Assembly (NCBI RefSeq): GCF_009650095.1
Contig: NZ_CP045915.1
Span: 930,001 to 994,000 of the forward strand
Length of the DNA stretch: 64,000 bases
Direction of reading: 5' to 3'
DNA from: Gracilibacillus salitolerans
GTDB taxonomy: Bacteria > Bacillota > Bacilli > Bacillales > Amphibacillaceae
Positions 57,895 through 60,432 of the stretch are shown here, piece by piece. The notes beneath the pieces were generated by a model. It had not been told where the DNA came from and made no database searches. It worked only from the letters and a program-made list of their open reading frames with translations. The position numbers and the translations under genes are program-made. Positions within the stretch are counted from its first letter, which is position 1. The number at the start of each line of letters is the position of its first letter.

Positions 57895-59180
57895 AAAAGC
57901 AGCTGGAAGAATGGAAAAAGCAATATGATCATGTAGAGGTAACAGAAAATGACTTGGATCAAGCAATTGAAGCAGGTGTGCAAAAAGCAGAACAGCAACG
58001 ACGTCTGAAACGATGGGGAATTGCTCCAGTTGTAGCAGCGGCTATTATCTTACTATCATTCATAACGATCATAAATGCATCTCCTACGTTTGCCGCACAA
58101 GTCGCGAAGTTTCCTGGAATGGAAAAATTCATTGAGCTGGTTCAATTTGATAAAGGACAGAAAGCAGCGATAGAGAATGACTACTTTCAAATAATCGATA
58201 AGTCCGTAACAAAAGGGGATCTCACACTGACAATAGATAGTGTAATTAGAGATGAGCATGGACTTGTATTATTTTATACAGTTTCCAGTGAAAAAGAACT
58301 TAATCGCATTCGTCTGGAAGAAAGTATGATTACGAATGATCAAGGTGAGGATCTAGGATATCAATCGGTGAGTTCTCGAGATGAAGCACAAGGAACTGTA
58401 GAATACTATACAGAAGAACCTATCCCTTTTGATGACTTCACCTTTACAGCAGAAGTCGTAGGAGTAGAAACATTAGATAATGGTGTTGGCAATCAATTAA
58501 GAGAGACGATTTCGATTGATTTTCATGCGGAGAATACAAAAGAAGCTATTCATTATCAAGTAGACGAAACAGTAACTGTAGAAGGCCAAAAAATTCATAT
58601 TAATTCTGTAACGATTCAACCATTGAGAACATCAATCAACCTCTATGCAGATCCTGAAAATGATATGCGTATTTTCTCATTTGATGATATTGCACTAGTT
58701 GATGAAAATGGAGAAGAATGGTCCGGGATTCAAAATGGTATGACAGCAAGTGGGACAATTGAAGATGAGAACTACGAAGTCTTTTTACAAAGCAATTATT
58801 TTGAACAGCCAGAATCATTAGTGCTTACCTTTTCTAAAATTCAGGCAGTGGATCGAAACAAGGACTATTTCCGTTTTGATTTAAAAAATGAGCAAATACT
58901 TCATGATCCGAATAATAAATTTTATGATATGGAATATAGAAATGGCTGGTTATCGGTCACGATGGATAGTATGGAAGATTATTATATGAACCCCTTTGGT
59001 GATATATTCGATCTAGATGGAAACAAAATGGAGCAAACAAGATCAAATTATGGACATACTCTAAATAATGAGTCCAGAACATTTAAACAGGCGATTCAAA
59101 CAAATGAATCAATCATAGATGTCAAATTATCCAGCTATCCGAACTGGATCGAAGAAAAAGTAGAAATCCCTTTAAAATAA
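57891..59180 (+). CDS. DUF4179 membrane protein, probable anti-sigma factor
   Basis: The 429-residue protein has a cytoplasmic helical head (about 1-43), one membrane helix (about 45-65; WGIAPVVAAAIILLSFITII) and an extracytoplasmic DUF4179 domain (from about 66; NASPTFAAQVAKFPGMEKFIELVQFDKG), then beta-rich domains of the DUF5643 kind. Proteins of this layout next to ECF sigma genes act as anti-sigma factors. It has no zinc finger, unlike the anti-sigma at 31278-32003. The ATGA overlap couples it to the sigma gene. Confidence 0.85.
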   Translation: MKKQLEEWKKQYDHVEVTENDLDQAIEAGVQKAEQQRRLKRWGIAPVVAAAIILLSFITIINASPTFAAQVAKFPGMEKFIELVQFDKGQKAAIENDYFQIIDKSVTKGDLTLTIDSVIRDEHGLVLFYTVSSEKELNRIRLEESMITNDQGEDLGYQSVSSRDEAQGTVEYYTEEPIPFDDFTFTAEVVGVETLDNGVGNQLRETISIDFHAENTKEAIHYQVDETVTVEGQKIHINSVTIQPLRTSINLYADPENDMRIFSFDDIALVDENGEEWSGIQNGMTASGTIEDENYEVFLQSNYFEQPESLVLTFSKIQAVDRNKDYFRFDLKNEQILHDPNNKFYDMEYRNGWLSVTMDSMEDYYMNPFGDIFDLDGNKMEQTRSNYGHTLNNESRTFKQAIQTNESIIDVKLSSYPNWIEEKVEIPLK

Positions 59181-59183
59181 AAG

Positions 59184-59222
59184 AAGCACGGTTGGCAGTC
59201 TAGTGACGAACCAACCGTGCTT
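59184..59222. terminator. bidirectional terminator
   Basis: AAGCACGGTTGG and CCAACCGTGCTT form a perfect 12-bp stem between the DUF4179 gene and the convergent microprotein genes. Confidence 0.88.
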
Positions 59223-59266
59223 GTTTAGGATATTACTTTATCTCTATGAAAGAACGAATCATTTGA

Positions 59267-59341
59267 TTACTGAAACATTACTTTAAATGTTAAAATGATG
59301 CATGTGAACAAGTTCGGATTTTTTCTTTTTGGACGATTCAT
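59267..59341 (-). CDS. putative 24-residue microprotein A (paralogue of B)
   Basis: The frame has 24 codons starting ATG with AAGGAGG seven bases upstream. The product is a basic head (MNRPKRK) followed by NPNLFTCIILTFKVMFQ. It shares the pattern NPNxFTCxILTFKxMFQ with microprotein B, which lies 23 bases upstream on the same strand, and both are exactly 24 residues. Two copies with conserved peptide sequence, conserved ribosome sites and synonymous base differences argue strongly that they are translated. Function is unknown: a peptide signal, a membrane-active peptide or a small enzyme partner are possible. The two genes share the terminator at 59184-59222. Confidence 0.7.
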   Translation of the reverse strand: MNRPKRKNPNLFTCIILTFKVMFQ

Positions 59342-59364
59342 GAAAGATCCTCCTTAATAAGTAT

Positions 59365-59439
59365 TTATTGAAACATAAGCTTAAACGTCAAGATAACACA
59401 AGTAAAGATGTTAGGGTTTTGCATTCTTTTCCTATTCAA
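59365..59439 (-). CDS. putative 24-residue microprotein B (paralogue of A)
   Basis: The frame has 24 codons with a TTG start and AGGAGG eight bases upstream. The product is a basic head (MNRKRMQ) followed by NPNIFTCVILTFKLMFQ, the same pattern as microprotein A. A single conserved cysteine sits at residue 14 in both. On the minus strand TAATAT upstream could be a -10 box, with a poor GTTAAA -35 sixteen bases before it. The first of two tandem genes; no processing enzyme or receptor gene is adjacent. Confidence 0.68.
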   Translation of the reverse strand: MNRKRMQNPNIFTCVILTFKLMFQ

Positions 59440-59572
59440 TGTAATACCCTCCTACTTTGTATTTTTAAGTTATATTAAGAGTAGCACGGTCGATTTAACA
59501 GTAAAACAAACCTGTAAGAACATGTAACAGACTTTTTTCTTTAGAATGAATGAATCTAAATTTGGTATAATA

Positions 59573-59601: not shown

Positions 59602-60432
59602 ATGATTTTTCAGCAAAATGAATATGATCGCTTACAAAAAGTGATTGTCTGTCCACCCAAATACATGGAAATCAAAAATGTTATCAATGAAACACAAAAA
59701 TTTTATGAAGATGAAAACATTGATGTAAAAATCGCAATGGAGCAGCATGAACGTTTTGTTCAAACATTGAAGCAGTTTGATATTGAAGTGATTGAACTAA
59801 TGACAGATTCTAAGCTTAATGAGCAAGTCTTTACGAGAGATATTGGCTTTGTGAACGGGGAAACACTATTTACCTGCGAGATGGGACGTAATATAAGAAA
59901 GCCGGAAATAGATGTATTGCAGCAATTCCTTGATCATGAAGATCTAACATATACACCATTGACAACTCGCTCTATTGAAGGTGGCGATGTTGTCGTTGCA
60001 AATGATAAAGTTTATGTAGGGAGGAGCCTTCGCACTACAAGAAAAGCCATTCAAGATTTGCAAAAACAAATACCTGACAAAGAAGTCGTTACCGTTCAGA
60101 TTCGAGAAGATATCCTTCATCTGGATTGTTGTTTTAATTTAGTGAGTGATAAGGTAGGACTTATTTATAATGATGCCTTTGATGAGAAGGAACGTAACTT
60201 ACTTCACAATGAATATGATTTAATTGAAGTGACAGATGATGAGCAGTTTACACTTGGCACGAATGTTTTTTCTATCGGAGATGGTAAAATTATTTCGTTA
60301 CCTGAAAATAAACAGGTGAATAAGCAGTTAACGAACAAAGGATTTGAAGTTGTTGAGGTTCCTTTTTCTGAAATTATTAAATCTGGAGGTTCTTTCCGTT
60401 GTTGTACACTTCCGATTGAGAGAGGGAAATAA
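59602..60432 (+). CDS. dimethylargininase-like / amidinotransferase family enzyme
   Basis: The 276-residue protein is of the guanidino-modifying superfamily. Motifs: FTRDIGFV (about 72-79, conserved Asp), IEGGDVVV (about 126-133), HLDCCF (catalytic His, about 173-178) and the C-terminal GGSFRCCTLP with the catalytic Cys (about 262-271). Relatives hydrolyse N-methylated arginine or arginine to citrulline (B. subtilis YkgA is similar). It is a single gene with its own terminator, so the substrate is not indicated by context. Confidence 0.85.
   Translation: MIFQQNEYDRLQKVIVCPPKYMEIKNVINETQKFYEDENIDVKIAMEQHERFVQTLKQFDIEVIELMTDSKLNEQVFTRDIGFVNGETLFTCEMGRNIRKPEIDVLQQFLDHEDLTYTPLTTRSIEGGDVVVANDKVYVGRSLRTTRKAIQDLQKQIPDKEVVTVQIREDILHLDCCFNLVSDKVGLIYNDAFDEKERNLLHNEYDLIEVTDDEQFTLGTNVFSIGDGKIISLPENKQVNKQLTNKGFEVVEVPFSEIIKSGGSFRCCTLPIERGK

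Follow-up and report, generated by a model that had tools for sequence, protein, structure and literature searches.

A microprotein family with a TnrA-type promoter in Gracilibacillus and other bacilli

Cyanobacterial nitrogen-controlled small proteins, such as IF7 and PirA, tune nitrogen metabolism, answer to a regulator other than TnrA, and are longer than the peptides described here and soluble. The products of ykzB-ykoL of Bacillus subtilis are also small, at about 50 to 60 residues, and hence longer than our 24-residue family. Streptococcal SHP pheromones have 20 to 25 residues, with a basic head and a hydrophobic tail, and are encoded beside an Rgg receptor; no Rgg receptor was recognized by eye in the nearest ORFs of 31 loci of the present family. 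A link to TnrA, which we predict for our genes, is on record for ykzB-ykoL, which is listed as a TnrA-activated operon (PMC4475385). We further liken the family, by size and by its probable tie to nitrogen, to sP26 of Methanosarcina mazei, a 23-residue protein linked to nitrogen metabolism; that protein is archaeal and is reported to interact with glutamine synthetase (GlnA1) (PMC11957540). As far as these two sources report, nitrogen-controlled small proteins are already a known kind (ykzB-ykoL, PMC4475385; sP26, PMC11957540).

Here, we analyzed a locus in Gracilibacillus salitolerans within a window of 64,000 nucleotides (the whole stretch of DNA under study). We consider it rather probable, judging from sequence features, that its two short ORFs belong to a family that is both TnrA regulated and translated into a working peptide. 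The TnrA-type promoter, missed in an earlier note on this DNA, is the strongest clue to their role.

Two short ORFs under purifying selection in Gracilibacillus

Both 24-residue frames were present on the minus strand between 59267 and 59439, where the earlier note had placed them. The first ORF (59365..59439) has a TTG start and the product MNRKRMQNPNIFTCVILTFKLMFQ, the second (59267..59341) has an ATG start and the product MNRPKRKNPNLFTCIILTFKVMFQ, and the two peptides are 67% identical to each other. Reading of the sequence confirmed that each has its own AGGAGG ribosome-binding site on the minus strand, at 59448..59453 for the first ORF (8 nt before the start) and at 59349..59354 for the second (7 nt before the start). 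The strong terminator said to be common to both frames was likewise recovered: folding and arm mapping placed a hairpin with T-rich flanks at 59180..59226 (no strand assigned), 3' of both ORFs, with arms at 59180-59195 and 59211-59226, 15 nt between them, and a folding energy of -25.8 kcal/mol (z -7.82 against 200 shuffles). This hairpin is missing from the list of our terminator scan, which was limited to loops of 3 to 8 nt. It is likely the terminator for both the microprotein transcript and the convergent gene. A leader peptide of an attenuated operon does not fit this locus, where no co-directional regulated gene stands directly downstream; in the window, the ORFs are followed by the strong hairpin and the convergent gene.

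On the other side, the ORFs diverge from a dimethylargininase-like gene (59602..60432, plus strand) whose product has Pfam DDAH and ADI domains, with NCBIfam matches below cut-off, and is 91, 90, and 86% identical to its counterparts in Gracilibacillus suaedae, G. lacisalsi, and G. orientalis, respectively. Intact copies were found in 13 of the 17 Gracilibacillus genomes, and in all 13 they lie next to and divergent from this gene; the gene on the far side, identified by eye, is variable (anti-sigma-like in the window and a Clp-like ATPase in others). Six of these genomes have two copies and seven have one, and relatives elsewhere are mostly single and dispersed; the tandem pair of the earlier note is thus not supported as a fixed unit. 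No further copies were matched in a search of the window's 5.09-Mb genome, and three genomes (G025, which is 83% complete, G026, and G036) have no copies before the neighbor gene and no credible match elsewhere. Genome G022 (locus L038) has two copies, both frameshifted, with a TnrA-type box (see below) 31 nt before the -10; its broken copies may reflect decay or sequencing error. In addition, runs of a short repeat like TATGGCCACTTT lie beyond the terminator at L036, L038, L039, and L040. A stretch like CATATGATAAAGCAATAT, located between the stop codon and the terminator, shows partial conservation across the 13 genus loci; it is lost in G030, whose downstream sequence differs altogether.

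The earlier note had read the differences between the two copies as a sign of selection on the protein, and a dN/dS-type check upheld this view. The window copies agree at 47 of 72 bases, with 13.5 synonymous differences over 12.8 sites and 10.5 non-synonymous differences over 56.2 sites (pN/pS 0.18). Over the 13 first or single copies in the genus, pN/pS was 0.187, compared with a column-permutation mean of 0.954 (0 of 300 permutations as low), and the six second copies gave 0.19 against a permuted 1.29 (again 0 of 300). The Gracilibacillus microprotein ORFs are under purifying selection. For 28 members from outside the genus, with three left out for length, pN/pS was 0.47, a weaker signal that is as expected if old paralogues are compared.

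That selection acts on the peptide argues against a small regulatory RNA as the main agent, with the ORF secondary, which we regard as very unlikely. A short transcript with a strong hairpin would suit such an RNA, as would some conservation between stop codon and hairpin in the genus, but a ribosome-binding-site motif (under a loose definition) is present at all 57 members of the wider family, the sequence after the stop codon is not common to the loci of taxonomic family f3 (see below) that were read by eye, and Rfam gave nothing at gathering score, with a single match at E 0.33 lying outside the locus.

Relatives in other families of the order

A search of 159 genomes of the host's taxonomic family gave no match at E below 0.03 outside the genus, and matches above that value were set aside as chance. 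When a profile of the genus peptides was run against 397 genomes, it revealed relatives in f3, another taxonomic family of the same order, in which members occur in 15 of 41 genomes (15 of 15 in two genera and none of 26 in the remaining five); a single genome holds as many as five copies. A later search of 397 genomes with profile A4 added taxonomic family f35 (members in 7 of 29 genomes, from three genera) and one f6 genome, G349 (8% contamination). Homologues in many genomes, as the earlier note had hoped to see, were thus found by profile search in the genus, f3, f6, and f35. A class-wide search of 398 genomes, with at most 21 candidates scored per genome, yielded no convincing member outside the order.

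We extracted 57 members (19 from the genus, 30 from f3, 1 from f6, and 7 from f35), leaving out of the counts two f3 search rows to which no locus belonged, L109 (which coincides with L079), and G022. First-profile matches at E 0.006-0.5 in the 397 genomes were treated as noise, except for L082, which was taken up for its promoter and reached E 1.5e-11 with the later profile A4, which contains L082. The match L080 (G453, E 6e-4), which spans positions 1-17 only, was not included, and four others were rejected as chance matches: L134 and L135, which lie inside longer frames, L179, which is without a start or ribosome-binding site, and L183, which is inside a 704-residue frame.

The members are 22-29 residues long (24 in 40 of the 57), and 48 of the 57 have a terminator-like hairpin no more than 260 nt downstream. 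Met1, Asn-Pro, and Leu-Thr are invariant across the 33-row alignment A4, with Ile-Thr found in one f35 member. The residues ahead of Asn-Pro form a mostly basic head (net charge 2.5 on average, from -1 to 5), and the 15 residues that follow are hydrophobic (mean GRAVY 1.64, range 0.16-2.57), with a low mean hydrophobic moment. The lone cysteine, described in the earlier note as conserved, is present in 14 of the 57 members and replaced by Phe in five genus orthologues, and we therefore rejected it as a key residue. Neither Pfam nor NCBIfam matched any member, no PDB chain showed sequence likeness to them, and PHROGs returned three unnamed families only (best E 0.051, touching at most 5 of 33 members). 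In line with the earlier note, which knew of no described family of this form, we found no description of the family, its promoter rule, or its dispersed copies in these databases or in the open-licence literature searched.

Short, hydrophobic products encoded in several copies also call to mind the toxins of type I toxin-antitoxin pairs, but neither the nutrient-type promoter described below nor the strong ribosome-binding sites fit such a toxin, and we regard this reading as extremely unlikely.

The scattered positions of the copies in genomes from outside the genus suggest that they act in trans. Five of the 31 f3/f6 loci adjoin a recognized nitrogen or nitric-oxide gene: three lie next to NarK-type transporters (two by NCBIfam matches below cut-off and the third by likeness), one lies between an NO-inducible flavohaemoprotein and a formate/nitrite-type transporter, and one is beside an arginase. 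For most of the other loci, no link to nitrogen was recognized. A secreted signal akin to short hydrophobic pheromones, its production tied to nitrogen starvation, would be compatible with the several copies per genome and with the SHP-like size, basic head, and hydrophobic tail. Nevertheless, no receptor or exporter was recognized as a constant neighbor at the 31 f3/f6 loci (nearest ORFs only, by eye), and the core is near-identical in all copies, whereas receptors would usually be expected to force divergence, so we find a secreted signal quite unlikely.

A TnrA-type box at a constant distance from the -10

The box TGTTACATGTTCTTACA (59513..59529, minus strand) matches 12 of the 13 specified positions of the TnrA consensus, TGTNANAWWWTNTNACA (PMC4475385). 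It precedes a possible -35, TTTTAC (59501..59506, minus strand; 17 nt before the -10), and an extended -10, TGCTACTCT (59478..59486, minus strand), whose hexamer, TACTCT, lies 29 nt after the box. The -35 matches weakly, as would be expected where a promoter relies on an activator.

Across the family, with 27-30 nt allowed, 48 of 51 promoters have the box 29 nt ahead of the -10, two have it at 28 nt, and one has it at 27 nt; the box scored at least 10 of 13 in 50 of the 51, the remaining one scoring 9. At 827 other TGNTANNNT sites in the same loci, which served as controls, boxes as good were found 1, 3, 1, and 6 times at 27, 28, 29, and 30 nt, respectively. In a less selective scan of 44 promoters, the -10 was picked by its own likeness to TATAAT and the box was scored at every spacing from 5 to 79; a spacing of 29 nt gave the best box in 41 promoters, including two ties, whereas two promoters had it at 28 and one at 27. 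The f35 promoters, found afterwards, have the full 8-base core TGTNAN7TNACA 29 nt before the hexamer in 7 of 7 cases, with GANACT in place of TANNNT as the hexamer in four and no TG in two of the other three. The spacer diverges while the box and the -10 stay. Since the promoters are related by descent, their counts are not independent, and the constant spacing shows that a layout has been conserved rather than that it arose 51 times. A fixed promoter layout of this kind can vouch for ORFs that are too short for ordinary homology statistics.

The possibility that the box serves the dimethylargininase-like gene was rejected, since its distance from -10-like sites on that side is variable and in some loci none is found, and since box and -10 are absent at three genus loci and 13 loci of other genera that lack the ORFs. 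The 13 come from 30 fetched loci; among the loci without the ORFs, L056 does show a site scoring 10 at a spacing of 30 nt. Before the neighbor gene at the three genus loci (G025, G026, and G036), no box paired with an extended -10 at 28-30 nt scored above 8.

TnrA itself is encoded in the window genome, as judged by an NCBIfam equivalog above cut-off, and a TnrA relative was found in all 19 of the member-bearing genomes checked (out of 36 in all, the 19 being drawn from outside f35); the match in G032 has an internal stop. Both the ORFs and TnrA are absent from G026, and G025 and G036 keep TnrA without the ORFs. The tnrA promoter of the window genome has the same arrangement (TGTCAGATTATCTTACA, 29 nt, TATAAT), and such a palindrome precedes the -10 of tnrA in eight genomes, at 29 nt in three and at 30 nt in five, the latter being all four f3 representatives tested in g48 plus G494, whose palindrome has C as its first base.

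The direct targets of the TnrA/GlnR/GlnK model circuit have been mapped by ChIP-on-chip in B. subtilis (PMC4475385). In the window genome, the exact TnrA consensus occurs at 8 places, compared with 1 for the reversed pattern; the window's own site, which has one mismatch, is not among them. One of the 8 is before glutamine synthetase, one before tnrA, and one before a zinc deaminase (guanine-deaminase-like by resemblance only), and four adjoin unrelated genes or sit inside one. The remaining one, L069 (G000:C1:2130022), lies between two NarK-type genes as part of a longer inverted repeat, possibly a terminator; a perfect match to the consensus may thus be no more than a terminator. A looser box was found at 19 places in three f3 genomes (ORFs read by eye): five before glnA-like genes, three before tnrA, three before ammonium-transporter genes, one before urease, one before a family member, one at the orphan promoter L176, and five others, the amt and urease identities each having been checked once. 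The orphan L176 (G546:C123) has an AT palindrome, box, and extended -10 with no recognizable microprotein ORF before the next hairpin, and is perhaps a decayed copy or an RNA.

Outside the genus, the boxes depart from the TnrA consensus in a systematic way, with C at position 11 in 23 of 30 f3 boxes, a base other than A at position 17 in 21 of 30, and G at position 7 in 7 of 7 f35 boxes. These departures, together with a second, AT-rich palindrome that accompanies the box in many f3 promoters, could point to activation by another regulator with a palindromic site similar to that of TnrA. We consider this very improbable, since the layout matches that of the tnrA promoters and C at position 11 also occurs in two of the three ammonium-transporter boxes and in two before glnA-like genes. 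Moreover, TnrA-specific sites are described as having loose outer bases and typically deviate at their ends, and a C or G as the first base abolishes repression by GlnR (PMC3412718). Five orthologues in the genus carry one of these two bases there.

As for the AT-rich palindrome, a match like ATGTATTTTAAATACAT just upstream of the box scores at least 11 of 17 in 22 of the 31 f3/f6 promoters (22% of shuffles do so), and 20 of these 22 lie 6-8 nt before the box. Its sequence resembles what we take to be the site of the nitric-oxide repressor NsrR. It recurs in many promoters among the f3 loci L106-L133 and is perfect in L127; in L108, a motif of this type is also present close to the start of the flavohaemoprotein gene.

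Possible action of the peptide in nitrogen supply

Regulation of the microprotein genes by TnrA, as predicted here, is well supported by sequence, and the genes are probably switched on when the cell is short of nitrogen. We propose that TnrA, active when glutamine is scarce, would bind the 17-bp box ending 29 nt before the -10 and activate a short transcript, usually ending at the hairpin, from whose good ribosome-binding sites peptides would be made that consist of a head, basic in most cases, then Asn-Pro, then a hydrophobic tail containing Leu-Thr (or, in one member, Ile-Thr). The peptide may then insert in or lie on the membrane and act in trans on a membrane target of nitrogen supply, candidates being transporters of nitrate, nitrite, or ammonium and the AmtB-GlnK-TnrA complex, so that nitrogen uptake would be tuned while TnrA is active. 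In favor of TnrA regulation and a working peptide, we counted the box layout, the similar tnrA promoters, the presence of TnrA, the lack of a comparable box plus -10 at the three genus loci without the ORFs, the selection on the peptide, the loose ends described for TnrA-specific sites (PMC3412718), the hydrophobic tail, and the nitrogen-related neighbors of some copies; against it, we counted the shared descent of the promoters, the consensus departures outside the genus, the presence of TnrA without the ORFs in G025 and G036, the internal stop in the TnrA match of G032, the small number of nitrogen neighbors, and tail GRAVY values reaching down to 0.16.

The earlier note had suggested a membrane-associated or a signalling peptide, and our guess favors the former over the latter. 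Taken alone, a membrane target falls somewhat short of an even chance. A soluble target of the same TnrA-driven peptide (glutamine synthetase, TnrA, GlnR, or GlnK) would fit the TnrA-type promoter, and sP26, similar in size, has a reported interaction with GlnA1 with small effects (PMC11957540); however, the hydrophobic tail and the lack of sequence likeness to any PDB chain make us think this unlikely.

Nitrogen limitation with a tnrA mutant as control offers a ready condition in which to look for the peptide. A conserved, often multi-copy 24-residue product under a TnrA-type promoter points to a small-protein output that is too short for the usual annotation. More speculatively, multi-copy 24-residue membrane peptides, made only with TnrA active, might serve as direct gates on nitrogen transporters or on the AmtB-GlnK-TnrA complex; in one lineage, they might also respond to nitric oxide through the NsrR-type site beside the TnrA box. 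Such a layer of nitrogen control in bacilli, which would not have been described before, is a tentative idea, and it would be new, if true.
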